From positions 248,001 to 312,000 of the forward strand of contig NZ_MTBP01000005.1 in NCBI RefSeq assembly GCF_002911665.1: a stretch of DNA of 64,000 bases, read 5' to 3'. Within the stretch, counting starts at the first letter, position 1; each line of letters starts with the position of its first letter. This DNA is from Actinomadura rubteroloni (GTDB lineage Bacteria > Actinomycetota > Actinomycetes > Streptosporangiales > Streptosporangiaceae). This document shows, piece by piece, positions 45,366-60,191 of the stretch. The translations under genes were made by a program, and so were the position numbers. The notes under the pieces are model-generated. The model was not told the DNA's origin. It searched no databases and saw only the letters and a list, made by a program, of their open reading frames with translations.

Positions 45366-45523
45366 AGGTCGCGCCTCCCTCCGGTTGTCGTTTGCTCCGT
45401 CTGCCGTGGACGTTACCGGGCGCTCCCGGTCCCGCGCGACTGCTTTTTCGCGCCGCCGCGCGGGAACCGGAGGGCGGGGGCCGGCGGTTATCGTGGCAGG
45501 AGACCGACGAGTGGGGGCGCGGC

Positions 45524-47653
45524 GTGGACGGACGAGCGGACCGGGACCCGGGCGGCCCCGACGAGCCGGTGCGGGACCTGGTGACGCGGCTGGACCGCGC
45601 GGCGGCGGGCCGGCTGGAGGAGCTGTGGGCGGGCCTGCGCGACGAGCTGGCGCCCGCCGCCCGCCGGGCCGGGGCGCTGACCGAACCGGCCCGCGGCCTG
45701 GCCAAGGACGTCGCGGGCGACATGATCCGCGACCTGGCCGGCGCCAGCGCCGACACGGCCGCGGCGCGGATGCTGGACCGGCTCGCCGGGACGCCCGCGA
45801 TGCGCGCGGTGGAACGCGCCGCCCACGACGCGGCGGTGCGGCTGGCGGTCGCGGCGGCCGAGCGGGCGGTGGCGGACGCGCGGGCTGTGGCGGCGTCCAA
45901 CCCGGTGACCGGCGCGGCGCTGGACGCGACGACGACGGCGGTCGCGCTGGCCGGGCAGGCCGCCCAGCGCGCGGCGCGGCTGGCGGGTCCGCTGGCGGGG
46001 CCGTTCGCACGGGCGTCGTCGCCCGCGCTGGAGGCCGTCGCGGACGCGGCGGGCCGCACGGTGTCGGCGACGGTGACGGCGCCGGTGGTGCAGGCCGCGT
46101 CGCGGGCGGTCGCGGACGCGGTGCTGGACGCGGTCGCCGAGGCCGCCGTGGAGGTCGCGCTGGACGTCGGCCGGGACGTGGCGGTGCAGGTGGTGCGGGA
46201 GACGGCGCGGGAGGCCGTCCGGGGCGCGGCGACGGCGGTGCGGGCGCGCGCCGCCGACACCACGGGGCTGCGTCCGGTGTCGTCGGCGGCGGCGGACCTG
46301 GCGGTGCGCGCGGCGGGCAGCGACGCGGCGCGCACGGCGGGCGGGATGGTCGCGGCGGTCGCGGGCGGTGTCGCGGGCAGCGCGGTGGCGCGGACGGCGC
46401 GGGACCTGGCGGGCCGCGCGGCGGCGCGCGCGACGGTCCTGGCGGTCGAGGCGGTCCTCTCGGAGCTGCTGCGGGAGGCGCTGAAGGCGGCGCTGCGCGA
46501 GCGCGTGCGCGGCCTGCTGCGCGACGTGGCCCGCGATGTGGTGGTTGACGTGACCCGGACGACCTGGACGGCGGCGACCCGCCCGTCCCCGCCCCGGCCC
46601 CCCACCGCCTGCGAGGCGGCCGCCGACAGCCCCGCCCCGGCCCGCGCGGCGGCGGACGAGCCGTCACCACGGCGCATCCCGGCACCCTCAGAACCGGCAA
46701 ACGACGCATGGGCCACGGCCACCCGTGCCCCGTCCGGCCCGCACACCGCCGGAAAGCCGGCGCCCGAGCAAGCACCAGACGCCCCGGCCAGCGAGCCGAC
46801 GCCCCCGAATCCCGCGGCCGGACCCGCGCGGCTGACGCCCACGCCCGGCCCGGCGGACCAGCCGCCGACAGCCGGAAGGCCTGCGGGCGCACGTCCGCCG
46901 GTTCCGGAACCGGCGGACGGGTCTGCGGAGGCGGCGTCCGGCCCGGCGAACCTGCCTGGGGCGTCCGGCGAGCCTGCCAGTGCCCGGAAGCCGACGGTCT
47001 TGAAGCCGGCGGACGGATCTGTGGAGGCGTCCTCCGGCCCGGTGGACCCGCCGTCGGCGTCCGGAAAGCGCGCCGACTCCCGGAAACCGACAGTCCCGGA
47101 CGTTGCGGACAAATCCGCATGGGCGAGGGCCACCCGCGAGGCGGCGGACCTCCCGTCGGCCGGAAAGCCCGCGCGCGAGACCGGGAGGCCGACGGCATCA
47201 GAACCGGTGGACGGATCAGCCTGGGCGATGGCAACGCGCGAAGCGGGCGGTCGCTCGGCGTCGCGGGACGCCGCACGCACTGACACGGCACGCCCTGACG
47301 CGGCGCAGGCGGACGACGCGTGGGCGACGGCCGTCCGCGACGCAGGACGGCCGTCGGCGGCCGGGGAGCCCGTCGTCGTCCGCAGGCCGGTGGTTCCGGA
47401 ACCGGCGGACGGGTCCGCGCGGGAGGCGGCCACGCGTGCGCGGGACGCATCCGTGGTGAAGGCGCGGGCAGCGGTGCCGGACGCGGCGGGGTCGCCGTCG
47501 GTGGGAAGGCCCGCGCCGGGCGGTGCGGCCGGCGGGGCGGGCGTGCGGCGGACGCCGGTCGGGGCGGTGGGCGGTGCCGTCCGGTACGCCGTGCGGGTTC
47601 GCGCGGTGCGGCTGCCGGTGGCGCGGCTGCCGTGGGGGCTGAGGGTCGGCTGA
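45524..47653 (+). CDS. Large Ala-rich helical protein with disordered repeat tail
   Basis: About 709 residues from GTG 45524 (the start is uncertain). Residues ~1-340 are amphipathic Ala/Val/Arg/Asp helices (AVERAAHDAAVRLAVAAAER, AVADAVLDAVAEAAVEVALD) without a clear transmembrane segment or signal peptide. Residues ~350-650 are Pro/Ala/Ser/Gly-rich and made of imperfect ~32-residue repeats built around (V)PEPADGSA, SAWARATREA and SAGKPA. The C-terminus is short and basic (VRYAVRVRAVRLPVARLPWG). Third-position GC and frame consistency support coding. Function unknown; the two-component operon follows 74 bp downstream. Confidence 0.65.
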   Translation: MDGRADRDPGGPDEPVRDLVTRLDRAAAGRLEELWAGLRDELAPAARRAGALTEPARGLAKDVAGDMIRDLAGASADTAAARMLDRLAGTPAMRAVERAAHDAAVRLAVAAAERAVADARAVAASNPVTGAALDATTTAVALAGQAAQRAARLAGPLAGPFARASSPALEAVADAAGRTVSATVTAPVVQAASRAVADAVLDAVAEAAVEVALDVGRDVAVQVVRETAREAVRGAATAVRARAADTTGLRPVSSAAADLAVRAAGSDAARTAGGMVAAVAGGVAGSAVARTARDLAGRAAARATVLAVEAVLSELLREALKAALRERVRGLLRDVARDVVVDVTRTTWTAATRPSPPRPPTACEAAADSPAPARAAADEPSPRRIPAPSEPANDAWATATRAPSGPHTAGKPAPEQAPDAPASEPTPPNPAAGPARLTPTPGPADQPPTAGRPAGARPPVPEPADGSAEAASGPANLPGASGEPASARKPTVLKPADGSVEASSGPVDPPSASGKRADSRKPTVPDVADKSAWARATREAADLPSAGKPARETGRPTASEPVDGSAWAMATREAGGRSASRDAARTDTARPDAAQADDAWATAVRDAGRPSAAGEPVVVRRPVVPEPADGSAREAATRARDASVVKARAAVPDAAGSPSVGRPAPGGAAGGAGVRRTPVGAVGGAVRYAVRVRAVRLPVARLPWGLRVG
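46690..47480 (+). repeat. Imperfect ~96-bp (32-codon) coding repeats
   Basis: Within the 709-residue gene, units containing PEPADGSAEAASGPANLPG, LKPADGSVEASSGPVDPPS, VADKSAWARATREAADLPS, SEPVDGSAWAMATREAGG, ADDAWATAVRDAGRPSAAG and PEPADGSAREAATRARDA recur at about 32-residue spacing. Divergence between copies indicates an old duplication under relaxed constraint. Confidence 0.6.
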
Positions 47654-47677
47654 GAAGTTCCTGAGAGCGGCATGAGA
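47651..47677 (+). promoter_or_regulatory. Three TGAGA direct repeats, 11-bp spacing (response-regulator box)
   Basis: TGAGA at 47651-47655, 47662-47666 and 47673-47677, each 11 bp apart (one helical turn), upstream of the response regulator. The first overlaps the stop of the preceding gene. OmpR/PhoB-family regulators bind such 11-bp direct repeats. TACGGT (47716-47721) is a possible -10 giving a nearly leaderless mRNA. Confidence 0.7.
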
Positions 47678-47727
47678 ATCCCGGCGGCGGCGGTGGGGCC
47701 GCCGGGACGCGTGGTTACGGTGGGTGC

Positions 47728-48447
47728 ATGGAGGCGGGGACGCAGGACGCGGCGGCGCGGATCCTGATCGTGGACGACGAGCCGGCGGTGCGGGAGTCGC
47801 TTGCGGGGAGCCTGGAGTTCGAGGGCTACCGGGTGGAGGAGGCCGCCGACGGGGCGCTGGCGCTGGACCGGGTCGCCGAGCGCCGCCCGGACCTGATCGT
47901 GCTGGACGTGCTGATGCCGCGGATGGACGGCCTGACGACGTGCCGGCGGCTGCGCGCGCAGGGCGAGGTGATGCCGGTGCTGATGCTGACGGCGCGCGAC
48001 ATGGTCGGGGACCGGGTGACGGGCCTGGACGCGGGCGCCGACGACTACCTGGTGAAGCCGTTCGAGCTGGACGAGCTGCTGGCGCGGATCCGGGCGCTGC
48101 TGCGCCGGACCGCGATGGCGGCCCCGGCTGGCGCCGAGCCGGGCGGCGTCCTGACGTTCGGGGACCTGCGGATGGACACGGTGACGCGGGAGGTGACGCG
48201 GGCGGGCCGTCCGCTGGGCCTGACGCGCACCGAGCACATGCTGCTGGAGATGTTCCTGCTGCATCCGCGGCAGGTCCTGACGCGGGAGCAGATTTTGGAG
48301 ACGGTGTGGGGGTTCGATTTCGAGCCCGCGTCCAATTCGCTGGACGTGTACGTGATGTACCTGCGCCGCAAGACCGAGGCGGGCGGGCTGCCGCGGGTGG
48401 TCCACACGGTGCGGGGCGTGGGGTACGTGCTGCGCGCGTCGGCGTGA
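47728..48447 (+). CDS. OmpR/PhoB-family response regulator (MprA-like)
   Basis: 239 residues. Receiver domain (~11-122): acidic pair in [10 protein letters not shown], phospho-Asp in [14 protein letters not shown], switch Thr in [10 protein letters not shown], and Lys in [10 protein letters not shown]. Winged-helix DNA-binding domain (~140-236) ends [15 protein letters not shown]. Its stop overlaps the kinase start (GTGA). Probably autoregulated through the TGAGA repeats upstream and likely controls the glycosyltransferase operon that follows. Confidence 0.9.
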
Positions 48448-49901
48448 GCCGGGCGTGGCGGCCGCTGGGGCGGCTGCCGTTGCGGGGGCGGCTGGCGCTG
48501 CTGATCGCGACGGCGGTGGCGGTGGCGGTGGCGGCGTGCGCGACGCTGTCGTGGTTCCTGGTCCGCGACCAGCTCTACCGGGAGCTGGACCGCAGGCTGG
48601 GGGTGCTGGGCGGCCCGCCGGGGCGGGCGGGCGACCCCGGGCGCGGCGCGCGGTGGGCCGAGGACCTCACGCGGCTGGCGGCGGTGTGCTCCCCGGACCC
48701 CACCGAATCCGGATCAACGTTCCGTTTCCCCGGCCCGTACGACATCGTGCAGGTGGTGAAGGCCGACGGGACGCGCTGCACCGTCCCGGACGCGGGCGCG
48801 CTGACGGTGACGCGCGCGGACCGGGAGGTCGCGGCGGGCCGGGCGGCGCAGGCCGTCCACAACGGGTCGGGGGTGACGGCGGGCGGCGCGGGCACGCGGG
48901 TGCGGGTCCTGACGCGTCCGGCGGTGACCCTGGACGGGACGCGGGTGGCGCTGTCGTACGCGATCCGCCTGGACCAGGTGAACCGTCCGCTGAACGACCT
49001 GGCGCTGATGCTGAGCGCGGTGGCGGCGTTCGGGGTGCTGGTGTCGGCGGGCGCGGGACTGATGATCGCGCGGGCGTCGCTGCGGCCCGTGGACGAGCTG
49101 ACCGACGCGGTGGAGCACATCGCCCGCACCGAGGACCTCGGGACGCCGATCCCCGCGCACGGCGCCGACGAGATCGCCCGGCTGAGCCGGTCGTTCAACC
49201 TGATGACGTCGGCGCTGGCGGCGTCGCGGGAGCGGCAGCGGCAGCTCATCGCCGACGCGGGCCACGAGCTGCGGACGCCGCTGACGAGCCTGCGCACCAA
49301 CATCGACCTGCTGCTGCGGTCGGAGCAGACGGGCCGGGAGCTGCCGGCGGGGACGCGGCACCGGCTGCTGGTGAGCGTGAAGGCGCAGATGGTGGAGCTG
49401 TCGAGCCTGGTGGGGGACCTGCTGGAGCTGGGCCGTCCGGACGAGCGGGGCCCCGAGCAGGCGGCGGTCGCCCTCCACGAGGTGGTGGGGCGGGCGGTGG
49501 AGCGGGCGCGGCTGCGCGGCCCGGGCCTGCGGGTGGACGCGGCGGTGGAGCCGTGGTTCGTGCGCGGCGATCCGGGGTCGCTGGAGCGGGCGGTGGTGAA
49601 CCTGCTGGACAACGCGGTGAAGTTCAGCCCGCCGGGCGGGACGGTGCGGGTGCGGCTGGCGGGCGGGGAGCTGGTGGTGGCCGACGAGGGCCCGGGGATC
49701 CCGGCGGCGGACGTCCCGCACGTGTTCGAGCGGTTCTGGCGGTCGCCGTCGGCGCGGAGCCTGCCGGGGTCGGGCCTGGGCCTGTCGATCGTGGCGCGGG
49801 TGGCGCGGGAGACCGGCGGGCGGGTCGCGGTGGACCGCGCGGACGGCGGCGGGGCGCTGCTGCGCCTGTCCCTGCCGGGCGGGCCCGCCGAGCCGTCCTG
49901 A
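48444..49901 (+). CDS. Sensor histidine kinase (MprB-like)
   Basis: 485 residues from GTG 48444. Two membrane segments (~15-40, [20 protein letters not shown]; and ~178-202, [20 protein letters not shown]) flank a ~135-residue extracytoplasmic sensor. HAMP (~203-255), HisKA with the phospho-His in [20 protein letters not shown], and HATPase_c with N-box [17 protein letters not shown]1 ADEGPGIP and G2 GSGLGLSIV. Partner of the response regulator at 47728; senses an envelope signal. Confidence 0.9.
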
Positions 49902-49902
49902 T

Positions 49903-49929
49903 TCTCATGGCGCGTTCATGCGCGCCTCA
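49903..49929 (+). promoter_or_regulatory. Three TGAGA-like repeats (inverted orientation), 11-bp spacing
   Basis: TCTCA (49903-49907), GTTCA (49914-49918) and CCTCA (49925-49929) are the complement of TGAGA, TGAAC and TGAGG at exactly 11-bp spacing, 36 bases before the glycosyltransferase start. This is the same repeat geometry as at 47651 and 59486. Confidence 0.55.
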
Positions 49930-49964
49930 CCGGTCCCCCAGACCGGGCCCCGACGGTGGAGCGC

Positions 49965-51194
49965 ATGAGCCACCTGATCACCGAGAGCGGCGCGCGGGAC
50001 GCGCCGTCCGGGCCGCCGCCGGGGCACGCGCGGCTCGTCGAGGTCGTCGTGCCCGTCCACAACGAGGAGCGGGTGCTGGCCGCGAGCGTGCGGCGCCTGC
50101 ACCGGTACCTGGACGGGACGTTCCCCTACCCGTTCCGGATCACGATCGCCGACAACGCCAGCACCGACGGGACGTGGCGCGCGGCGCAGGCCCTGGCGGC
50201 GGAGCTGGAGGGGGTGCGGGCCGTCCGGCTGGACCGCAAGGGCCGGGGCCGGGCGCTGCGGCACGTGTGGAGCGGCAGCGACGCCGACGTCGTCGCGTAC
50301 ATGGACGCGGACCTGTCGACGGACCTGGACGCGTTCCTTCCGCTGGTCGCGCCGCTGATCTCCGGGCACAGCGACCTGGCGATCGGGTCGCGGCTGACGC
50401 GGGGCGCGGCGGTGGTGCGGGGCCCGCGCCGGGAGGTGATCTCCCGCTGCTACAACCTGTTGCTGCGGGCGGCGCTGGCGGCGCGGTTCACCGACGCGCA
50501 GTGCGGGTTCAAGGCGGCGCGGACGGAGATCGCGCAGGCGCTGCTGCCGCGCGTGGAGGACGAGGAGTGGTTCTTCGACACCGAGCTGCTGCTGCTGGCC
50601 GAGCGCAACGGGCTGCGCATCCATGAGGTCCCGGTGGACTGGGTGGACGATCCCGACAGCCGGGTGCAGGTGTGGCGGACGGCCCGCGACGACCTGCGCG
50701 GGATGGCGCGGGTGGCGCGGCGGATGCTGACGGGCGGGTTCGGCGCGCCGGTCGGCCGCCGGGACGCGGCGGCGGGCCTGCCGGCGGGGATGGCGCGGCA
50801 GCTCCCGGTGTTCGCGGTGATCGGGGCGGTGAGCACGGCGGCGCAGCTCGCCTTGTTCGTCCTGCTGCGCACGGTGCTGGGCCCGCTGGCGGCGAACGCG
50901 GTGTCGCTGGTGGTGACGACGGTCGGGAACACGGCGGCGAACCGCCGGTTCACGTTCGGCGTGACGGGGCCGGGCGGCGCGCTGCGGCACCAGGCGCAGG
51001 GCCTGCTGGCGTTCCTGCTGGGCCTGGCGCTGAGCACGGGCGGGCTGGCGGCGCTGCACGCGGCGGCGCCGGGCGCGCCGCGCGGGGTGGAGGTGCTGGC
51101 GCTGGTCGCGGCGAACGGGCTGGCGACGCTGGCGCGGTTCGTGCTGATGCGGGCGTGGATCTTCCGTCCGCGCGGCGAGGGGGGCGCGTCGTGA
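49965..51194 (+). CDS. Fused GT2 glycosyltransferase / GtrA-like membrane protein
   Basis: 409 residues from ATG 49965 (a GTG three codons upstream is also possible). Residues ~25-250 are a family 2 glycosyltransferase: VEVVVPVHNEERVLAASVRR, the DxD-like YMDADLSTDL, GSRLTRGA and QCGFKAARTE, as in dolichol-phosphate mannosyltransferases. Residues ~275-400 are a GtrA/DPMS-like domain with four hydrophobic helices and NTAANRRFTFG. It likely makes a polyprenyl-phosphate sugar donor for the two downstream polytopic transferases, to which it is coupled by GTGA. Confidence 0.88.
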   Translation: MSHLITESGARDAPSGPPPGHARLVEVVVPVHNEERVLAASVRRLHRYLDGTFPYPFRITIADNASTDGTWRAAQALAAELEGVRAVRLDRKGRGRALRHVWSGSDADVVAYMDADLSTDLDAFLPLVAPLISGHSDLAIGSRLTRGAAVVRGPRREVISRCYNLLLRAALAARFTDAQCGFKAARTEIAQALLPRVEDEEWFFDTELLLLAERNGLRIHEVPVDWVDDPDSRVQVWRTARDDLRGMARVARRMLTGGFGAPVGRRDAAAGLPAGMARQLPVFAVIGAVSTAAQLALFVLLRTVLGPLAANAVSLVVTTVGNTAANRRFTFGVTGPGGALRHQAQGLLAFLLGLALSTGGLAALHAAAPGAPRGVEVLALVAANGLATLARFVLMRAWIFRPRGEGGAS

Positions 51195-53194
51195 CGGCGG
51201 CCGGGACGGAGCCGAAAGCGGCGCCGGGAGTGCTGCGCCGGGCCGCGCTCGGCGGGGACGGGCCGCGCTGGTCGCGTCCGGCGCTGTGGGCGGTGCTGGT
51301 CGCGGCGTTCGCGCTGTACGCGTGGGACCTGCCGGGCGGCGGGACGGCGAACGCCTACTACGCGGCGGCGGTGAAGAGCGCGACGCAGAGCTGGAAGGCG
51401 TTCTTCTTCGGGTCGCTGGACGCGGGGTCGTTCATCACGGTGGACAAGCCGCCGCTGGCGCTGTGGGTGCAGGCGCTGTTCGCGCGGGTGCTGGGGTTCG
51501 GCCCGTGGGCGCTGCTGCTGCCGCAGGCGCTGGCGGGGACGGCGGCGGTCGCGGTGCTGCACGCGACGGTGCGGCGGGCGTTCGGTCCGGTGGCGGCGCT
51601 GGCGGCGGCGGTGGTGCTGGCGCTGACGCCGATCACGGTCGCGATCGACCGGGACAACAACCCCGACGCCCTGCTGGTGCTGCTGCTGGTGCTGGGGGCG
51701 TGGGCGGTGCAGCGCGCGGTCACCGGGGGGCGGCTGCGGTGGCTGCTGGCGGCGGCGTTCCTGGTGGGGTGCGGGTTCAACACCAAGATGCTGCAGGCGT
51801 TCCTGGTCGTCCCGCCGTTCGCGCTGGCGTACCTGGTCGCGGCGCGTCCATCGTTCCCGCGCCGGGTGGCGCACCTGGCGGCGGCGGGCGCGGTGCTGGC
51901 GGTGTCGGGCGGCTGGTGGATGGCCGTGGTCGACGCGGTCCCGGCGGGGTCGCGGCCGTTCATCGGCGGCAGCACCGACGGGACGGTGCTGGACCTGGTC
52001 GTCGGCTACAACGGCCTCGGCCGGATCCTCGGCCGCGACGCGCCGGGCGGCGGCGCGGGCGGCGGTGCGGGGTTCGGCGGAGAGCCGGGCGCGGGACGGC
52101 TGTTCAACGACGTCGTCGGCGGCCAGATCTCGTGGCTGCTGCCGCTGGCGGTCCTGGTGCTGCTGGCCGGGGGGCTGCTGCTGGCGCGGCGTCCGCGCCG
52201 GGACGTCCAGGGCGCGGCGCTGCTGCTGTGGGGCGGGTGGCTGGCGGTCCACTACGCCGTGTTCAGTTTCGCGCAGGGCACGTTCCACCCGTACTACACG
52301 ACGGCGCTGGCCCCGGCGGTCGCGGCGCTGGCCGGGGCGGGAACGGTCCTCGCCGCCGACCTGTACCGGCGGCGGCGCTGGGCGTGGACGGTTCCGGCGG
52401 GCGTGGCGGTGACGGGCGGCTGGGCGTTCGCGCTGCTGGCGCGGACGCCGGGCTGGCATCCGTGGCTGCGCTGGACGGTCGCCGCGGCGGCGGTCGCGGC
52501 GGTCGCGGGCCTGCTCGCGGCCCGGTACGCGCGGGCCGCGCGGCGGGTGCTGCCCGCGGCCGTGGCGGCTGCGGTGGTCGCGGGCCTGGCGGGGCCGGGC
52601 GCCTACGCGGTCGCGGCGGCGTCGGCGGCGTCCAACGGGACGAACCCGCTGGCGGGCCCGTCGGCGGGCGCGGGCTTCCCGGGCCGTCCGGACCGAACCG
52701 CGATGCCACCCGGCGTCCGGAACATGCCGGGCGCACCGTCCGGCGCACCGTCCGGCGCAGGGTCGGGCGCTCCGTCGGGGATGGCGCCGCGCGGCGGGCC
52801 GGGGCGGATGCGCGGCGGGTTCGGCGGCGGGCCGGGCGGCGGGGTGGACGCGAAGATGACGTCCTACCTGGAGCGGAACCAGGGGTCGGCGCGGTGGCTG
52901 GTGGCGGTGTCGAGCGCGCAGTCGGCGTCGTCGCTGATCCTGGCGACGGGCCGTCCGGTGATCGCGATGGGCGGGTTCACCGGCTCCGACCCGGCGATGA
53001 CCGTGGGGAAGCTTCAGGCGCTCGTGCGGTCGGGCCGGTTGCGGTACGTGCTGGTCGGAGGCGGTTTCGGCCCGGACCGCGGTGCGGACGGCGTGAGCGC
53101 GTGGGTGCGCGAGCACGGCACGCGGGTGCCGGCGTCGGCGTACGGGGGGACGTCGGACGGCTCGTCCGTCCTGTACCGGCTGGAGGCGTCATGA
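51191..53194 (+). CDS. ArnT/YkcA-B-like polytopic glycosyltransferase 1
   Basis: 667 residues from GTG 51191. About 11-12 hydrophobic helices; the first extracytoplasmic loop contains SLDAGSFITVDKPPLALWVQ, the D-K-P-P motif of GT39/GT83 lipid-linked sugar transferases, with RDNNPDALLV in a later loop. After the helices a Gly/Pro/Ala/Met-rich linker (~480-540) leads to a C-terminal extracytoplasmic domain (VIAMGGFTGSDPAMTVGKLQ). It transfers a sugar from a polyprenyl-phosphate donor to an envelope acceptor. Followed by a paralogue through ATGA. Confidence 0.86.
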   Translation: MTAAGTEPKAAPGVLRRAALGGDGPRWSRPALWAVLVAAFALYAWDLPGGGTANAYYAAAVKSATQSWKAFFFGSLDAGSFITVDKPPLALWVQALFARVLGFGPWALLLPQALAGTAAVAVLHATVRRAFGPVAALAAAVVLALTPITVAIDRDNNPDALLVLLLVLGAWAVQRAVTGGRLRWLLAAAFLVGCGFNTKMLQAFLVVPPFALAYLVAARPSFPRRVAHLAAAGAVLAVSGGWWMAVVDAVPAGSRPFIGGSTDGTVLDLVVGYNGLGRILGRDAPGGGAGGGAGFGGEPGAGRLFNDVVGGQISWLLPLAVLVLLAGGLLLARRPRRDVQGAALLLWGGWLAVHYAVFSFAQGTFHPYYTTALAPAVAALAGAGTVLAADLYRRRRWAWTVPAGVAVTGGWAFALLARTPGWHPWLRWTVAAAAVAAVAGLLAARYARAARRVLPAAVAAAVVAGLAGPGAYAVAAASAASNGTNPLAGPSAGAGFPGRPDRTAMPPGVRNMPGAPSGAPSGAGSGAPSGMAPRGGPGRMRGGFGGGPGGGVDAKMTSYLERNQGSARWLVAVSSAQSASSLILATGRPVIAMGGFTGSDPAMTVGKLQALVRSGRLRYVLVGGGFGPDRGADGVSAWVREHGTRVPASAYGGTSDGSSVLYRLEAS

Positions 53195-55188
53195 CCGCGG
53201 CGGCGCGGGACGGCGATCCGGTGTGGGCGCGGCCCGCGCTGGGGGTGCTGCTGGCGGCCACGGCGGCGCTGTACCTGTGGGGCCTGGGCGCGTCGGGCTG
53301 GGCGAACGCGTTCTACGCGGCGGCGGCGCAGGCCGGGTCCGAGAGCTGGTCGGCGTTCTTCTTCGGGGCGTCGGACGCGGCGGGCGCGATCACCGTGGAC
53401 AAGACGCCGGGCGCGCTGTGGCCGATGGCGCTGTCGGCGCGGCTGTTCGGGGTGAACTCCTGGAGCCTGCTGGTCCCGCAGGCGCTGATGGGGGTGGGGA
53501 CGGTCGCGCTGCTGCACGCGGCGGTGCGGCGGTCGCTGGGCCGGACGCCGGGCAGCGTGGTCCCGGCGCTGCTGGCGGGCGCCGCGCTGGCGGTGACGCC
53601 GGTCGCGGCGCTGATGTTCCGGTTCGACAATCCCGACGCGCTGCTGGTGCTGCTGCTGACGGCGGCGGCGTACGCGCTGCTGCGGGCGCGGGAGGACGCG
53701 CGGGCGCGGTGGGTGGTGGTGTGCGGCGCGCTGGTCGGGGCGGGGTTCCTGGCGAAGATGCTGCAGGCGTTCCTGGTGGTGCCGGTGTTCGCCGCGGTGT
53801 ACCTGGCGGTGGCGCCGGGCGGGCTGCGGGGCCGGGTCGTGCGGCTGCTGGCGGGCGGTGCGGCGCTGGTGGCCGCGGCGGGCTGGTGGGTGGCGGCGGT
53901 CGCGCTGGTCCCGGCGGGGTCGCGTCCCTACATCGGCGGGTCGCAGCACGACAGCGTGCTGGAGCTGGCGCTCGGCTACAACGGGCTGGGGCGGCTGAAC
54001 GGCGCGGAGACCGGCGGCCTCGGCAACCTGGACGGGGACGCGGGCTGGGCGCGGATGTTCGGCCCGGTGATCGGCGGCCAGGTCGCGTGGCTGCTCCCGG
54101 CGGCGCTGCTGCTGCTCGCGGCGGGGCTGTGGGCGGTGCGGCGGGCGCCGCGCACGGACGCCCTGCGGGCGGCCTTCCTGGTGTGGGGCGGGTGGCTGCT
54201 GGTCACCGGCGCGGTGTTCAGCTTCATGCGGGGGATCTTCCACGAGTACTACACGGTGGCGCTGGCCCCGCCGATCGCGGCGCTGACGGGGCTGGGCGCG
54301 GCGGTGCTGTGGGAGCGGCGCCGCTCCCCGGCGGCGGCGGGCGTGCTGGCGGTCGCGGTGGCGGGGACGGCGGTGTGGTCGTTCGTGCTGCTGGGACGGT
54401 CGCCGGGGTGGCTGCCGTGGCTGCGTCCGCTCGTCCTCGCGGCGGGCCTGTGCGCGGCGGCGGCCCTCGCGGCGCTGCATCTGCTGCCGCGCCGCGCGGT
54501 CGCGGCGGCGTCGTTCGCGGCGGTCGCTGCGTGCCTGGCGGGCCCCTCGGCGTACGCGGTGGAGACGGCGGGGACGCCGCACACCGGGTCGATCGTGACG
54601 GCGGGTCCGGCGGTGGCGCGCGACGGCCCGGGGCGGCGCTCGGGCCGTCCGCCCGGCGGGATGCGCGGCGCACCGCCCGGGCTGCCGCGCAACCGCCCCG
54701 GCACCGGCTTCCCCGGCGCCCCGGGCAGCGGCCGCGGCCCGGCGGACGGCGTGGCGGGCGGCCAGCGCGGCGGCGCGGCCGGTGGGCCGGGCGATGGCAT
54801 GGGCGGCGGGATGGGCGGGCTGCTGGGCGCGGCGACGCCGGACGCGCAGGTGACGGCGCTGCTGCGGGCGGACGCGTCGTCGTACACGTGGGCGGCGGCG
54901 GCCGTGGGCTCCAACAGTGCGGCGGGGCTGCAGTTGGCGAGCGGCCGTCCGGTGATGGCGGTCGGCGGGTTCAACGGGACGGACCCGGCGCCGACGCTGG
55001 CGGAGTTCCAGCGGCTGGTCGCCCAGAGGAAGGTCCGCTATTTCGTCGGCGGCGCGATGCCGGGAGCGCGCGGCGGGTCGGGCGGCAGTGACGCGGCGGA
55101 GCGGATCGCGCGGTGGGTGGCGGCGTCGTTCCCGTCGCGGACGGTGGCGGGCACGACCCTGTACGACCTGACGGCCGGCCGGGTGTGA
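53191..55188 (+). CDS. ArnT/YkcA-B-like polytopic glycosyltransferase 2
   Basis: 665 residues, paralogous to the previous gene along the whole length: AAGAITVDKTPGALWPMALS (D-K-T-P in place of D-K-P-P), RFDNPDALLVLLL, a similar helix layout, a Gly-rich linker (~475-545) and the same C-terminal domain (VMAVGGFNGTDPAPTLAEFQ). The altered DKPP motif suggests a different donor or acceptor. Last gene of the probable operon that starts at 49965. Confidence 0.86.
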   Translation: MTAAARDGDPVWARPALGVLLAATAALYLWGLGASGWANAFYAAAAQAGSESWSAFFFGASDAAGAITVDKTPGALWPMALSARLFGVNSWSLLVPQALMGVGTVALLHAAVRRSLGRTPGSVVPALLAGAALAVTPVAALMFRFDNPDALLVLLLTAAAYALLRAREDARARWVVVCGALVGAGFLAKMLQAFLVVPVFAAVYLAVAPGGLRGRVVRLLAGGAALVAAAGWWVAAVALVPAGSRPYIGGSQHDSVLELALGYNGLGRLNGAETGGLGNLDGDAGWARMFGPVIGGQVAWLLPAALLLLAAGLWAVRRAPRTDALRAAFLVWGGWLLVTGAVFSFMRGIFHEYYTVALAPPIAALTGLGAAVLWERRRSPAAAGVLAVAVAGTAVWSFVLLGRSPGWLPWLRPLVLAAGLCAAAALAALHLLPRRAVAAASFAAVAACLAGPSAYAVETAGTPHTGSIVTAGPAVARDGPGRRSGRPPGGMRGAPPGLPRNRPGTGFPGAPGSGRGPADGVAGGQRGGAAGGPGDGMGGGMGGLLGAATPDAQVTALLRADASSYTWAAAAVGSNSAAGLQLASGRPVMAVGGFNGTDPAPTLAEFQRLVAQRKVRYFVGGAMPGARGGSGGSDAAERIARWVAASFPSRTVAGTTLYDLTAGRV

Positions 55189-55263
55189 CGGGTGGTGTGA
55201 GGGTGGCGGCGCGGGGCATCTGGCAGGGGGAGCCCGGCGCCGCCGGGCGGGGAGGAGCACACG

Positions 55264-55563
55264 ATGGCGGAGGTGCTGGGCGACGCGGCGATCGCGGCGC
55301 GGCTGACGGAGCTGGCGGGGTGGGAGCGGACGGACGGCCGGATCCACCGGTCGGTGACGGCGCCGTCGTTCCTGACGGGCATCGAGGTGGTGAACGAGGT
55401 GGCGCGGGCGGCGGAGACGGCCGACCACCATCCCGACATCGACATCCGGTGGCGGACGGTGACGTTCTCGCTCACGACGCACAGCGCGGGCGGCCTGACG
55501 GCCAAGGACTTCGCGCTGGCGGAGTCGATCGACCGCATCGCCGCCCAGCACGACGCGACCTGA
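55264..55563 (+). CDS. 4a-hydroxytetrahydrobiopterin dehydratase
   Basis: 99 residues. The PCD/DCoH signature is intact: TADHHPDIDIRWRTVTFSL, then THSAGGLTAKDFALA, giving the His-His pair, Trp and later His of the active site. It dehydrates 4a-hydroxypterins after pterin-dependent hydroxylation, or supports folate metabolism. ATG preceded by GGGAGGAGC. It is not obviously related to its neighbours. Confidence 0.88.
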   Translation: MAEVLGDAAIAARLTELAGWERTDGRIHRSVTAPSFLTGIEVVNEVARAAETADHHPDIDIRWRTVTFSLTTHSAGGLTAKDFALAESIDRIAAQHDAT

Positions 55564-55615
55564 CCCCGCCCGGGAAAGGCGTCCGACCCGCTTGCCGGAC
55601 GTCTCACCAGAAGCC

Positions 55616-55697
55616 CGCCGTCAGGCCGGGCCGACGCCGGGCCGAACGCGCCGCGTGCGGCGCCGCGCGACCGGACCGCGCGCCCGGCCTGACGGCG
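55616..55697 (+). terminator. 16-bp inverted repeat after PCD gene
   Basis: CGCCGTCAGGCCGGGC (55616-55631) pairs perfectly with 55682-55697 across a 50-base GC-rich loop. A smaller CGTCCG / CGGACG hairpin (55580-55601) precedes it. Together they probably end transcription of the dehydratase gene. Confidence 0.5.
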
Positions 55698-55800
55698 CGG
55701 CGGCGGCGCGTTCCGCACGCCGCTCGCGGCCAGCGGCTCGGCGGGCTCGGCGGGCTCGGCGCGCCCCGTCGCCGGGCGGGGCCGTGCGACCGGGCTCGAC

Positions 55801-55954
55801 GCGCGCCCTCCGACGCGCGCCCTCCGACGCGCGCCCTCCGACGCGCGCCCTCCGACGCGCGCCCTCCGACGCGCGCCCTCCGACGCGCGCCCTCCGACGC
55901 GCGCCCTCCGACGCGCGCCCTCCGACGCGCGCCCTCCGACGCGCGCCCTCCGAC
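55801..55954. repeat. Eleven perfect tandem copies of a 14-bp unit
   Basis: GCGCGCCCTCCGAC is repeated 11 times without a mismatch between 55801 and 55954, in the 470-bp gap between the PCD gene and the convergent SDR. Perfect identity implies recent expansion, so copy number probably varies between strains. It is open in several frames but shows no start signals and is considered non-coding. Confidence 0.92.
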
Positions 55955-56033
55955 GCGCGCGGCAGGGTGCGCGGCGGCGGCCCGCTGACGGGAGCGATCC
56001 AAGGGTTCTGAGGGCGGGTCAGTGGGCGGCGGG

Positions 56034-56816
56034 TCAGTGGGCGGAGAAGCCGCCGTCCACGAAGATGGCCTGGCCGGTGACGGCGGACGCGGCGGGGCCG
56101 GCGAGGAACACGGCGGCGCCGGCGAAGTCGGCGGGGACGCCGTTGCGTCCGGTGAGGGTGCGGGCGGCGAGCGCGGCGACGCGGCCGGGGTCGGCGGACA
56201 GGTGCGCGTTCAGCGGCGTGGCGACGAACCCGGGGACGAGCGCGTTGCTGGTGACGCCGTGCGGCGACCAGGCCTCGGCCTCGGAGCGGGCGAGCGCGGT
56301 GACGCCGCCTTTGGACGCGCCGTAGGCGCCGCTGTCGGCGAACGCGCGGAACGCCTGCTGGGACGACAGGTGCAGGATGCGCCCGTAGCCGCGCCGGGCC
56401 ATGCGGGGCGCGAAGTGGCGGCCGAGCAGGAACGGGGCGGTGAGGTTGACGGCGAGGGTGGTGTCCCAGACGTCGTCGCCGAGGTCGCCGAGCGGGGGCC
56501 GCAGGTTGACGGCGGCGCTGTGGACGAGGATGTCGGGGTCCCCGAACGGGACGGCGGCGTCGGCGGCGGCGCGGCGCACCTGGGCGCGGTCGGCGAGGTC
56601 GGCGACGACGTAGTCGGCGTCGTGCCCGGCGGCGCGCAGTTCCCCGGCGGTGTCGCGCAGCGCGGTCTCCCCGCGGGCGAGCAGGACGACGCGGGCCCCG
56701 GCGGCGGCGAGCGCGGTGGCGATGGCGCGGCCGATGCCGGAGCTGCCGCCGGTGACGAGCGCGACGCGTCCGTGCAGGCCGAACAGCCCGGTGAGGTAGG
56801 CGGCGGGTGTGGTCAT
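56034..56816 (-). CDS. SDR-family oxidoreductase (gluconate 5-dehydrogenase-like)
   Basis: 260 residues. VALVTGGSSGIGRAIATALA (~18-37), LVHSAAVNLRPPLGD in the NNAG region, active-site Ser in LHLSSQQAFR and YGASKGG with Tyr and Lys, and C-terminal VTGQAIFVDGGFSAH. The stop lies inside a 15-bp direct duplication (two GGGTCAGTGGGCGG units at 56016-56044), suggesting a small slippage at the gene end. Divergent from the PLP enzyme at 56864 with a 47-bp gap. Confidence 0.85.
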   Translation of the reverse strand: MTTPAAYLTGLFGLHGRVALVTGGSSGIGRAIATALAAAGARVVLLARGETALRDTAGELRAAGHDADYVVADLADRAQVRRAAADAAVPFGDPDILVHSAAVNLRPPLGDLGDDVWDTTLAVNLTAPFLLGRHFAPRMARRGYGRILHLSSQQAFRAFADSGAYGASKGGVTALARSEAEAWSPHGVTSNALVPGFVATPLNAHLSADPGRVAALAARTLTGRNGVPADFAGAAVFLAGPAASAVTGQAIFVDGGFSAH

Positions 56817-56863
56817 GCGGGCACCCTATGGGCGGGCGGGGCGGCGTCGTCCATCATCGGGGT

Positions 56864-57922
56864 ATGGACATCGCGGGCGGGTCGCTGTCGGTGCAGGAGG
56901 CGCGCGGGGAGTTCGCGCCGCGCGTGGCGTATCTGAACACCGCGTCGTACGGGCTGCCGCCGCGTGCGGCGCACGAGGCGATGCTGGCGGCCGAGCGGGA
57001 CCGCGCGGCGGGCCTGATGTCGCCGGCCGGGGTGGAGGCGACGGTGCCGGTGGCGCGGGCGGCGTTCGCGCGGCTGGTGGGGGTGCCGGCGGAGCGGGTG
57101 GCGGTGGGCCCGCAGGCGTCGTACTTCGTGGGGCTGGTCGCGGCGTCGCTGCCGGCCGGGGCGCGGGTGGTGGTGGCCGACGGCGACTTCGCGTCGCTGG
57201 TGCACCCGTTCCTGGCGCGCGAGGGGCTGCGGGTGCGGTCGGTGCCGCTGGAGCGGGTCGCGGACGCGGCGTCGGACGGCGCGGACCTGGTCGCGGTGTC
57301 GGTGGTGCAGTCGGCGGACGGGCGGATCGCGCCGCTGGCGCAGGTGTCGGCGGCGGCGCGGTCGGCGGGCGCGCGGGTGCTGCTGGACGCGACGCAGGCG
57401 TGCGGGTGGCTGCCGGTGGACGCCGCGGCGGCCGACTTCGTGGTGTGCGGCGGCTACAAGTGGCTGATGGGGCCGCGCGGGACGGCGTTCTTCACGGTGG
57501 CGCCGGACGCGCTGGCGGGCGTGTGGCCGGTCGCGGCGGGCTGGTTCGCCTCCGAGGACCCGTGGGCGTCGCTGTACGCGGGGGAGCTGCGGCTGGCGCC
57601 GGACGCGCGGCGGCTGGACCTGTCCCCGGCGTGGCCGTCGTGGGCGGGGCAGGCGGCGGCGCTGGAGCTGCTGGAGCGGGTCGGCGCGGACGCGGTGCTG
57701 CGCCACGACGTGGGGCTGGCGAACCGGTTCCGGGCGGGTCTGGGCCTGCCGCCGGACGCGTCGGCGATCGTGTCGCTGCGCGTCCCGGACGGGACGGCGG
57801 CGCGCCTGGCCGAGCACGGCGTGGTTGTGGCCGAGCGGGCGGGCCGGCTGCGCGCGTCGTTCCACCTGAGCACGTCCGAGGACGACGTGGACCGCGCCCT
57901 GTCCCTGCTCACCGGCACCTGA
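56864..57922 (+). CDS. Class V aminotransferase-family PLP enzyme
   Basis: 352 residues from ATG 56864. YLNTASYGLPPRAAHEAM is the family start; the PLP Lys is in FVVCGGYKWLMGPRGTAFF (~203), preceded by the Asp-containing LLDATQACGWLPVDAAA block. It resembles the cysteine desulfurase/isopenicillin-epimerase-like subgroup but lacks a recognisable catalytic Cys loop, so the reaction is uncertain. Gap 57923-58211 follows and contains the operator-like palindromes noted separately. Confidence 0.85.
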   Translation: MDIAGGSLSVQEARGEFAPRVAYLNTASYGLPPRAAHEAMLAAERDRAAGLMSPAGVEATVPVARAAFARLVGVPAERVAVGPQASYFVGLVAASLPAGARVVVADGDFASLVHPFLAREGLRVRSVPLERVADAASDGADLVAVSVVQSADGRIAPLAQVSAAARSAGARVLLDATQACGWLPVDAAAADFVVCGGYKWLMGPRGTAFFTVAPDALAGVWPVAAGWFASEDPWASLYAGELRLAPDARRLDLSPAWPSWAGQAAALELLERVGADAVLRHDVGLANRFRAGLGLPPDASAIVSLRVPDGTAARLAEHGVVVAERAGRLRASFHLSTSEDDVDRALSLLTGT

Positions 57923-58079
57923 GACCGCCGCCCGCGCGGGGCGCGCATCCGGTGGGACGAAACGGGCGTCGGGAGGCTCCCGGACGGGAAGGAAAAGGAA
58001 GTCCGGACGGCCCCGCTAAGCGGGGTGATGGTCTGGATTGTCCCGAAACGTGGCTTGTTGTTGAGGATGTCGGCGCGAT

Positions 58080-58140
58080 GTTGTCACGGGAGTGACAACG
58101 TTCGGCGTGCAGCACGTACACAATGTGAGTGTTGCGCAAC
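58080..58140 (+). promoter_or_regulatory. Palindromes upstream of the PucR/CdaR-like gene
   Basis: GTTGTCAC-GGGA-GTGACAAC (58080-58099, perfect 8-bp arms) and GTTGCGCAAC (58131-58140, perfect 10-bp palindrome) lie 113 and 72 bases before the chosen start at 58212. They support the region being a promoter rather than coding sequence. Confidence 0.5.
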
Positions 58141-58211
58141 GCACAAGATACCTACCGTCGGAGACCCGGTTCCGGGCGGCGGCCCGGCTGCTGTCCGGGT
58201 GGAGGTGTGCG

Positions 58212-59477
58212 GTGACGTTGGTGTACGACGGGGCTCCGGTGGACGGGGCGCGCGAGGGCGCGGCGGCGCAGCCGTGGCGTGCGGTGCCGGTGGCGGAGGC
58301 GGCGTGGATGCGGGGGCATCTGCCGGCCGTGCAGGAGCTGATGGTGGCGGGCGTGCTGCGGGAGGTGCCCGAGTACGCGCGTCCGGGCGATCCGGTGTAC
58401 CGGCAGGTGGTGGAGGCCGCGGTGGTCTTCGCGATGGAGCACCTGGTGCGGCTGATCGAGGACCCGGACGTGTCGTGGAAGGACGTGTACCAGGTCTACT
58501 TCGACGTCGGCTACGGGGAGGCGGTGGAGGGCCGCAGCCTGGAGCACCTGCAGAACGCGATGCGGATCGCGTCGCGGACGGCGTGGCGGTACCTGGCGGC
58601 GGAGTACCAGCGGCTGGGGCGCCCGCTGTCGCTGCTGAGCGTGATGGCGGAGGCGAACTTCGCGTACCTGGACGAGTTGTCGTCGGCGGCGGCGGCCGGG
58701 TACCGGCGGGCGCGGGAGAAGGCGGCGGGCGAGCGCGAGCAGCGCCGGCACCGGCTGCTGGGGCTGCTGCTGTCGGAGTCGCCGGTGCCCGAGGGCGTGG
58801 TGGCCGAGCAGGCGGCGATGGCGGGCTGGCCGCTGCCGCAGCGGCTGGCGGTGATCGTGCTGCGCCCGCGTCCGGGCAGCGGCGGGGAGGGCCCGTCGGG
58901 GCTGCCGCCGCAGGTGCTGGCGGGCCTGGACGGGGGCCGTCCCTGCCTGGTGATGCCCGACCCGGACGGCCCGGGCCAGTCCGAGCGGCTGACCGGCATG
59001 CTGGCGGGCTGGTCGGGCGCGGTGGGCCCGGCGGTGCCGCCGGGCGAGGCGCGGGTGTCGCTGCACTGGGCGCGGCGGGCACTGGAGCTCCCGGCCGACC
59101 CCTGCGCCGGCGCCGACGACGCGCAGCGCGTCGGCCTGGTCCGCGCGGAGGAGCGGGTCGCGGACCTGCTGCTGGAGGCGGGCGGCCGGCTGACCGAGAT
59201 CGTCGCGGCGCGCCGCCTGGAGCCGCTGACGCGGACCCGGTCCCGGCACGGCGTGCGGCTGGCGGTGACGCTGCTGGAGTGCCTGAAGAACGGGTTCAAC
59301 GCGACGGGCGCGGCGGCGGCGCTGCACGTGCACCCGCAGACCGTCCGGTACCGCCTGGGGCAGTTGCACGACCTGCTGGGCTTCGACATCGAGGACCCGG
59401 AGATCCGCCTGGAGCTGATGCTGCTGCTGCAGGTGTGGATCCGGCGGGAGGGCGAGCTGCCCGAGCAGCCCGCCTAG
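58212..59477 (+). CDS. PucR/CdaR-type helix-turn-helix regulator
   Basis: 421 residues from GTG 58212, preceded by GGAGG at 6 bases; a GTG at 58092 in the same frame would add 40 residues that overlap palindromes and was rejected. The C-terminus has the PucR-type HTH (ALHVHPQTVRYRLGQLHDLL, then LRLELMLLLQVWIRREGEL). The middle is a GGDEF-like/CdaR domain and the N-terminus a helical sensor (VYRQVVEAAVVFAMEHLVRL). Stand-alone, target unknown; may act on its own palindromic upstream region. Confidence 0.82.
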   Translation: MTLVYDGAPVDGAREGAAAQPWRAVPVAEAAWMRGHLPAVQELMVAGVLREVPEYARPGDPVYRQVVEAAVVFAMEHLVRLIEDPDVSWKDVYQVYFDVGYGEAVEGRSLEHLQNAMRIASRTAWRYLAAEYQRLGRPLSLLSVMAEANFAYLDELSSAAAAGYRRAREKAAGEREQRRHRLLGLLLSESPVPEGVVAEQAAMAGWPLPQRLAVIVLRPRPGSGGEGPSGLPPQVLAGLDGGRPCLVMPDPDGPGQSERLTGMLAGWSGAVGPAVPPGEARVSLHWARRALELPADPCAGADDAQRVGLVRAEERVADLLLEAGGRLTEIVAARRLEPLTRTRSRHGVRLAVTLLECLKNGFNATGAAAALHVHPQTVRYRLGQLHDLLGFDIEDPEIRLELMLLLQVWIRREGELPEQPA

Positions 59478-59485
59478 CGCGGCGT

Positions 59486-59512
59486 CGAGAGGGCGTTGAG
59501 AGGGTTCTGAGA
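59486..59512 (+). promoter_or_regulatory. CGAGA-TGAGA-TGAGA direct repeats, 11-bp spacing
   Basis: CGAGA (59486-59490), TGAGA (59497-59501) and TGAGA (59508-59512) at exactly 11-bp spacing, 25 bases before the DUF2231 gene start. Same unit and spacing as upstream of the response regulator (47651). The short distance to the ATG implies a leaderless or nearly leaderless transcript. Confidence 0.68.
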
Positions 59513-59537: not shown

Positions 59538-60191
59538 ATGAGCGATGACGTCCCGGCCTCCGCGCCGTCCCCCGGTCCCTCCTCCCCGCCCGCGCCGGGC
59601 CCGGCTCCGGGCGGCGGCCCGCGCCGTGCGCTTTCGGGCGGCGTCCTGAACGCGCCGCTGGTGCTGCTGGCGGCGGCCGTCGTGCTGGCCGCGGGGCTGG
59701 CGCCGGTGGAGCCCGGGGAGGCGTTCGGGCTTCCGGCGCATCCGCTGCTGGTCCACGTCCCGGTGGTGCTGGTGCCGCTGCTGTCGGCCGCGGTCGCGGC
59801 GCTGGCGGCGCGTCCGGCGTGGCGGCTCCGGTTCGGGGTCGCGGCGGGCGGGGCGCTGGTGGCGGTGATGGCGGCGACGATGCTCGCGGCGGGCGCGGGC
59901 GAGGCGCTGCGCGACGCGCGCGCCGGGGGCGGCCCGGTGCCGGCGGCGGTGGCCGAGCACGGGGAGCTGGGCGGGCAGCTCCGCGTGCTGGTGGTGGCGC
60001 TGACGGTGGTCTTCCTGGCGGTCCTGGTCCTGGACGCGCGCCGCGCCCGCGTCCCCGAGCCGGGCCGCGCGGCGGTGCTGGCGGGACGGGCCGCCGCGGC
60101 GCTCGTGGTGGTCCTGGCGGTGCTGGCGCTGGTGTGGGTGGTGCGGGCGGGCCACGCCGGCGCCGAGCTGACCTGGGGCCACGCCGACTGA
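59538..60191 (+). CDS. DUF2231-like membrane protein
   Basis: 217 residues. A Pro/Ser/Gly-rich cytoplasmic N-terminus (~1-32) is followed by four hydrophobic segments; LPAHPLLVHVPVVLVPLLSA is the characteristic DUF2231 block (conserved His in helix 2), and the end AGHAGAELTWGHAD carries another typical His/Gly turn. Such proteins are thought to bind heme or act in redox membrane complexes, without clear proof. It may belong to the TGAGA-box regulon. Confidence 0.82.
   Translation: MSDDVPASAPSPGPSSPPAPGPAPGGGPRRALSGGVLNAPLVLLAAAVVLAAGLAPVEPGEAFGLPAHPLLVHVPVVLVPLLSAAVAALAARPAWRLRFGVAAGGALVAVMAATMLAAGAGEALRDARAGGGPVPAAVAEHGELGGQLRVLVVALTVVFLAVLVLDARRARVPEPGRAAVLAGRAAAALVVVLAVLALVWVVRAGHAGAELTWGHAD

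Follow-up and report, generated by a model that had tools for sequence, protein, structure and literature searches.

Do the TGAGA repeats that recur in a 64,000-nucleotide stretch of the Actinomadura rubteroloni genome (contig NZ_MTBP01000005.1, positions 248,001 to 312,000; hereafter, the window) mark the regulon of a two-component system (TCS) encoded in the same stretch? An earlier note on this DNA had proposed so, having found three TGAGA-like pentamers at 11-bp spacing upstream of the gene for an OmpR-family response regulator (RR), an operon for a GT2–GtrA fusion and two PMT-type transferases, and a gene for a DUF2231 membrane protein. Comparison of sequences indicates a real envelope regulon of the OmpR family, in which predicted RR binding connects autoregulation, trans-membrane glycosylation and MacAB export. 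At this level, strong support for the proposed link between the TCS and the GT2–GtrA/PMT operon, via an OmpR-type repeat of 11 bp, comes from conservation, from co-occurrence and from a box sequence that differs with the linked regulator. The features on which the argument depends are as follows.

47640..47677, plus strand: four-copy array of the RR promoter (TGAGG at 47640; TGAGA at 47651, 47662 and 47673), 88 to 51 bp upstream of the RR start codon
47728..48447, plus strand: OmpR-family RR, MprA-like (Response_reg PF00072, Trans_reg_C PF00486); homologues are named MprA by some sources
48444..49901, plus strand: sensor histidine kinase of 485 amino acids (HAMP, HisKA, HATPase_c)
49903..49940, minus strand: four-copy array of the GT2 promoter (TGAGA at 49903–49907, TGAAC at 49914–49918, TGAGG at 49925–49929, TGGGG at 49936–49940), 65 to 28 bp upstream of the GT2 ATG
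49968..51194, plus strand: GT2 glycosyltransferase–GtrA domain fusion (Glycos_transf_2, GtrA_DPMS_TM), with the start codon picked from an alignment
51191..53194, plus strand: YkcB-like GT-C transferase 1 (PMT_2, YkcB_C)
53191..55188, plus strand: YkcB-like GT-C transferase 2 (PMT_2, YkcB_C)

All nine pentamers in the earlier note are present where it had placed them. Its description of triple repeats holds for the DUF2231 gene only: additional in-register copies (TGAGG at 47640; TGGGG at 49936–49940, minus strand) give the RR and GT2 promoters four copies each at a pitch of 11 bp. When TGAGA-N6-TGAGA-N6-TGAGA was sought in the window with up to three mismatches, all five matches fell on the RR, GT2 and DUF2231 arrays, and 100 shuffled windows contained 0.33 matches on average, none of them reaching five (0/100). 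The genome-wide search suggested previously bears this out, yielding six matches to the triple with up to two mismatches in the 6.47-Mb genome and none for a reversed-pattern control. The best triples upstream of the 21 OmpR-type RR loci of this genome score 15 at the window RR, 13 at a paralogue, 12 at L056 and at most 10 at the other 18. The GT2 array matches TGAGA ×3 only at three mismatches, and its significance therefore rests on conservation in relatives rather than on the window. Pairs of TGAGA are nonspecific (42 matches with up to one mismatch in this genome versus 23 for the control), and extension of the regulon through such pairs was rejected.

Conservation was assessed with distinct arrays only, taken from upstream of RR matches of at least 77.5% identity (30 arrays; 29 from Actinomadura and one from Embleya) and GT2 matches of at least 75% identity (27 arrays, all from Actinomadura). 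The pentamer cores carry more information than the spacers in both sets (1.37 versus 0.77 bits for RR, with degraded rows included; 1.76 versus 1.08 bits for GT2). The mean triple score was compared for all periods from 7 to 16 and is highest at period 11, both for the RR (12.8) and GT2 (11.4) promoters and for those of a MacA-ABC-MacB export operon described below (13.7); no other period exceeds 9.5, 9.0 and 11.1, respectively. Scores of at least 12/15 are attained by 24/30 RR, 11/27 GT2 and 22/22 MacA promoters, and by none of the corresponding shuffled sequences (0/600, 0/540 and 0/440). The GT2 array is constant in sequence though its spacing from the kinase stop codon varies in length.

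The genes themselves travel together. Across 60 Actinomadura genomes, 43 have both RR and GT2, 15 have neither and two are mixed; in one of the latter (G075), the GT2 gene starts 1.5 kb from the contig start, so that the RR gene may lie off the contig, and the other (G025) has only a partial match to the RR. When at most one mismatch to the triple is allowed, the same genomes contain 64 matches, versus four for the control (overlapping registers counted separately). Of the 64, 17 are no more than 250 bp from the RR gene and 18 no more than 250 bp from the MacA gene; the other 29 lie elsewhere. In several relatives, no kinase gene lies between RR and GT2 and the gap is about 90 bp (L310 in G021, L311 in G006, L253 in G080, and, by coordinates, G059); the GT2 array is retained in this gap in L310 and L311 despite the absent kinase gene. 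It is also retained in L074 and L082, where GT2 directly follows RR, with TGAGG as the last copy. The kinase gene was not found beside RR in L074, L082 and L253, in which a genome-wide kinase search was not made.

The earlier note had overlooked a further array-bearing target, the MacA-ABC-MacB export operon, whose first gene (MacA/HlyD-like) starts at C1:1174770 of this genome, is followed by those for an ABC ATPase and a MacB/FtsX permease, and is divergent from genes for a Fer2/FAD oxidoreductase and a fatty-acid desaturase. MacA is present in 23 of the 60 genomes, 21 of which bear the RR (Fisher p 0.016, phylogeny not corrected for). On the strand opposite to the gene, to which the scan was confined, all 22 upstream regions scanned (G060, with a C-terminal match only, was left out) have an array that is oriented as at GT2 and matches the cores at 15 to 18 of 20 positions. 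It starts 61–63 bp before the projected gene start in 17 genomes, 47 bp in four and 72 bp in one. The first copy is TGGGG in 10/22, TGTGG in 8/22 and another sequence in 4/22, its GT2 counterpart being TGGGA or close to it. The 21 distinct MacA arrays have 1.71 bits in the cores versus 0.81 in the spacers.

A 43-position profile was trained on 37 arrays (20 of the 30 RR and 17 of the 27 GT2), including the two of the window, whose scores are thus high by construction; in whole-genome searches, 150 candidates were scored per genome (in this genome, 150 of 2042). The RR (37.9 bits) and GT2 (32.7 bits) arrays are the top two in this genome and, in the same order, in the window. MacA sites rank third in G003 (E 0.003), G022 (E 0.07) and G006 (E 0.004). 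The MacA site of G016 is not among the matches listed for the 150 candidates scored; a 24.2-bit match at C2:659197-659228 of that genome (L320; E 2.3e-4) ranks above it. In four RR-bearing genomes, the best match has an E value of at most 2.1e-5 and is always at GT2, and in seven of eight RR-less genomes compared with them, the best E value is 0.010 to 0.71. The RR site of G081, an RR-bearing genome, is not among the matches listed. The eighth RR-less genome, G065, has neither RR nor GT2 matches and contains a 37.6-bit RR-type array (L342, C38:3268-3309) before a 40-residue remnant of the start of RR; this is a relic of a lost system. In addition, a TGTGA-TGAGA-TGAGA triple at C1:626309-626335 of the present genome (L002, L308) is matched in G016 too, and the open reading frame downstream of it has no Pfam match.

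The identity of the box goes with that of the regulator. In 80 named loci around GT2 relatives, an RR gene counted as linked if it lay on the same strand and no further than 6 kb upstream, and two classes were split at 65% RR identity, resulting in 29 class A loci (MprA-like RR, at least 70% identical to the window RR), 27 class B loci (PhoP-like RR, 44–49%) and 24 loci without RR. The four-copy GT2 array fits TGAGA better in 27/29 class A loci, with two ties, and TGTGA better in 27/27 class B loci, so that box class and linked RR agree in 54/56 loci, with two ties; in the class A loci L109, L124 and L132, the best-scoring segment lies outside the conserved register. Loci without RR are divided (TGAGA better in nine, tie in three, TGTGA better in 12). 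Some Streptomycetaceae, too, have class A RRs, namely Embleya scabrispora (L124; GT2 site TGAGG/TTAAG/TGAGA) and Streptomyces sp. SID3343 (L132; TGAGC/TTAAC/TGAGA), and the box difference is therefore not simply taxonomic. In five loci of Kitasatospora and Streptacidiphilus (L127, L134, L136, L137, L147), the GT2 gene has a TGAGA array and the fetched locus yielded no RR or GT-C gene; these arrays may be targets of an unlinked regulator. Taken together, the balance tips towards one envelope-glycosylation operon having changed hands between two OmpR-family regulators within the Actinobacteria, with four TGAGA-type half-sites beside the MprA-like and four TGTGA-type half-sites beside the PhoP-like RR, and with copy number, 11-bp pitch and inverted orientation unchanged.

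The proposed inclusion of the DUF2231 gene stands on different ground. The site and gene are located about 10 kb on from the other genes:

59486..59512, plus strand: three-copy array before DUF2231 (CGAGA at 59486, TGAGA at 59497 and 59508), a weak member of the set
59538..60191, plus strand: DUF2231 membrane protein (PF09990)

In favour of membership, the array ranks third in the window by the profile trained on RR and GT2 (13.4 bits, the next match having 6.5 bits). Against it, the gene is found in only 2/60 Actinomadura genomes, the sister species keeps two of the three copies, and the site ranks sixth in the genome (13.3 bits, E 0.61). The DUF2231 gene was thus left unproven as a core member (2/60 genomes; E 0.61), and it may be a recent, lineage-specific addition to the regulon.

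We consider it likely, judging from these comparisons of sequence, that the arrays are operators of the MprA-like RR at 47728 and that its own operon, the GT2–GtrA/PMT operon and MacAB are activated by the kinase–RR pathway. An RR with receiver and winged-helix domains, an adjoining HisKA/HATPase_c kinase and direct repeats at a pitch of about 11 bp together characterize an OmpR/PhoB-family TCS. The kinase at 48444 has two hydrophobic segments, at about residues 11–41 and 182–213, enclosing a region without a Pfam match, and is predicted to phosphorylate the RR upon an envelope signal. On the four half-sites, spaced by 11 bp, phosphorylated RR would then form a tandem head-to-tail oligomer, and such oligomers probably activate the regulon. 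At its own operon, RR would act from a site 51–88 bp before the ATG. The GT2 array spans 28–65 bp before the ATG and hence covers the place where a −35 element would lie, from which RR may activate the GT2–GtrA/PMT operon; the MacA-ABC-MacB operon, with the same inverted array, would be a further target. GT2, GtrA and YkcB-type GT-C domains are encoded together, and by analogy with the YclJ-activated ykcBC and yngABC operons of Bacillus subtilis, which are proposed to form a system with the same three activities (PMC7961091, PMC5836110), the operon probably encodes a trans-membrane glycosylation system. GT2–GtrA would charge a lipid-phosphate carrier with a presumptive sugar and flip it; transfer of the sugar to an envelope acceptor would fall to the two YkcB-like enzymes.

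Several observations weigh against this account. The RR array is weak or degraded in some relatives (only 24/30 reach 12/15), and outside Actinomadura, in Streptosporangiaceae as in other class A genomes, no comparable plus-strand array was found upstream of RR. TGAGA arrays also stand before some GT2 genes for which no RR was detected within the fetched locus, and 29 of the 64 genus-wide matches lie at neither RR nor MacA and have no target assigned. The MacA site of this genome has only 12.0 bits when scored directly with the RR and GT2 profile, and it is not among the matches listed genome-wide (150 of 2042 candidates scored). The relatives compared are not independent of one another. Lastly, MacA co-occurs with a paralogous RR (p 0.011) about as strongly as with the window RR (p 0.016). 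It is conceivable, then, that an OmpR-type paralogue such as that at C1:919519 (49% identical) owns some of the sites, above all that of MacA, and that the box is common to several regulators. The region upstream of this paralogue does have a TGAGA triple in this genome, and 13 of the 23 MacA genomes have the paralogue (p 0.011). However, it is absent from the other 10 (at an E limit of 1e-95), the MacA array being kept in all nine of these that were examined, and in relatives its upstream regions have a different repeat, CTCTGA/CAGAGG, as read by eye. For these two reasons, ownership of the MacA sites by the paralogue is judged less likely, and the proposal as a whole quite improbable; the window RR is absent from only 2/23 MacA genomes, and in one of these two GT2 lies close to the start of a contig. 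In the present genome, the paralogue gene (L041/L285) is divergent from a ferric-reductase-like gene, and the CTCTGA/CAGAGG repeats of the relatives (L286–L306) recur at about 11 bp.

The sign of control is a separate matter. The arrays could be bound by the window RR and yet be repressor sites, at which phosphorylated or unphosphorylated RR blocks RNA polymerase; the GT2 and MacA arrays overlap the prospective −35 region and run opposite to the RR array, as this would allow. However, MprA of Corynebacterium glutamicum is an activator of its own promoter (PMC12113857) and YclJ of B. subtilis is one of ykcBC (PMC7961091), neither with direct bearing on the window RR, and we regard repression as unlikely. 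Chance repetition in GC-rich DNA is a very improbable source of the arrays: one-mismatch pairs are indeed common (42 versus 23) and the DUF2231 site alone falls within the genome background (E 0.61), but cores, register and position are conserved in relatives and the triple occurs 64 times genus-wide versus four in the control. Chance is already contradicted for the RR, GT2 and MacA arrays, but not for that of DUF2231.

Activation by tandem RR oligomers, the preferred explanation, has a parallel in Mycobacterium tuberculosis PhoP, which with PrrA is the closest solved structure to the window RR. PMC4832192 describes the binding of PhoP, as a tandem dimer, to repeats of TCACAGC-N4 (GCTGTGA at an 11-bp pitch), with a higher affinity for three or four repeats than for two. 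Like PhoP, the window RR is an OmpR-family RR with direct repeats at an 11-bp pitch; unlike that of PhoP, its box is TGAGA, not TGTGA (the reverse complement of TCACA), and a PhoP-type operator does not describe the class A GT2 promoters, where TGAGA is the better fit in 27/29 with two ties. The class B RR of L139 is closer to PhoP (E 3e-81) than is the window RR (E 8e-64). Three of six PhoP base contacts are kept in the window RR (Asn212, Tyr217, Tyr220), and Val213, Glu215 and Ser216 are replaced by Ser, Asp and Val (positions as numbered in PMC4832192). The same text describes a water contact of Ser216 that reaches the base pair that differs between the boxes, and an account of the box change by this residue was considered and rejected: Ser216 is Val in the window RR, but it is also replaced, by Leu, in the PhoP-like RR of L139, so that Ser216 alone does not explain the change.

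MprAB of Corynebacterium and Mycobacterium is likewise an actinobacterial envelope-stress TCS, and some sources name homologues of the window RR MprA. In the accessible part of PMC12113857, the C. glutamicum MprA has the motif TKTTAAGAAM, which resembles the last half-site (TGAGAA) of the array, and targets sigE, sigB, htrA, bla and csp; unlike the regulon proposed here, that account includes no glycosylation or MacAB target. MprA-box terms were not found in PMC11345224. No MprA model is among the NCBIfam matches listed for the window RR (25 of 99), none of which reaches its cut-off. Enterobacterial PmrA/BasR has an 11-bp repeat geometry and lipid A as its target. It resembles the present system in placing envelope sugar modification under an OmpR-family RR, but the BasR match to the window RR (E 2e-37) is far below that of PhoP, and the NCBIfam PmrA equivalog gives 173.5 bits against a cut-off of 330. 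The accessible texts on B. subtilis (PMC7961091, PMC5836110) describe an RR, YclJ, that activates ykcBC and yngABC, a proposed YkcC–YngA–YkcB trans-membrane glycosylation system. YclJK is thus similar in that a TCS controls a GT2, GtrA and GT-C set; it differs in belonging to a Firmicute, in having GT2 and GtrA as separate proteins in two operons and in a link to low oxygen, and the likeness is drawn without a comparison of YclJ sequence or box. No report of this regulon or of Actinomadura TGAGA arrays is among the literature matches listed.

Some details of the locus may be added. The closest named relatives of the genome are Actinomadura species. A candidate promoter element, read from the sequence, precedes the RR gene:

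47716..47721, plus strand: putative −10 element TACGGT, six bases 5′ of the RR ATG

Given this position, the RR transcript is possibly leaderless. A long, alanine-rich open reading frame (45392–47653, plus strand) has its TGA stop codon inside copy 2 of the RR array (47651–47653), and an open reading frame with a similar ending also lies 5′ of the RR-type array of G065.

The MacAB target and a box that goes with the regulator are what adds interest beyond known OmpR-family TCS regulons. A little-studied actinobacterial TCS thereby gains a concrete predicted regulon, comprising itself, trans-membrane glycosylation and MacAB export. The window system and its PhoP-like counterparts form a matched pair for studying how the DNA specificity of OmpR-family regulators can change with the geometry of the oligomer kept. 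The YclJ precedent (PMC7961091) suggests that GT2/GtrA/GT-C glycosylation has come under two-component control in more than one phylum. If the handover of the operon is true, it would be a natural record of the co-switching of regulator and operator, with one base changed per half-site and a few substitutions in the recognition helix.

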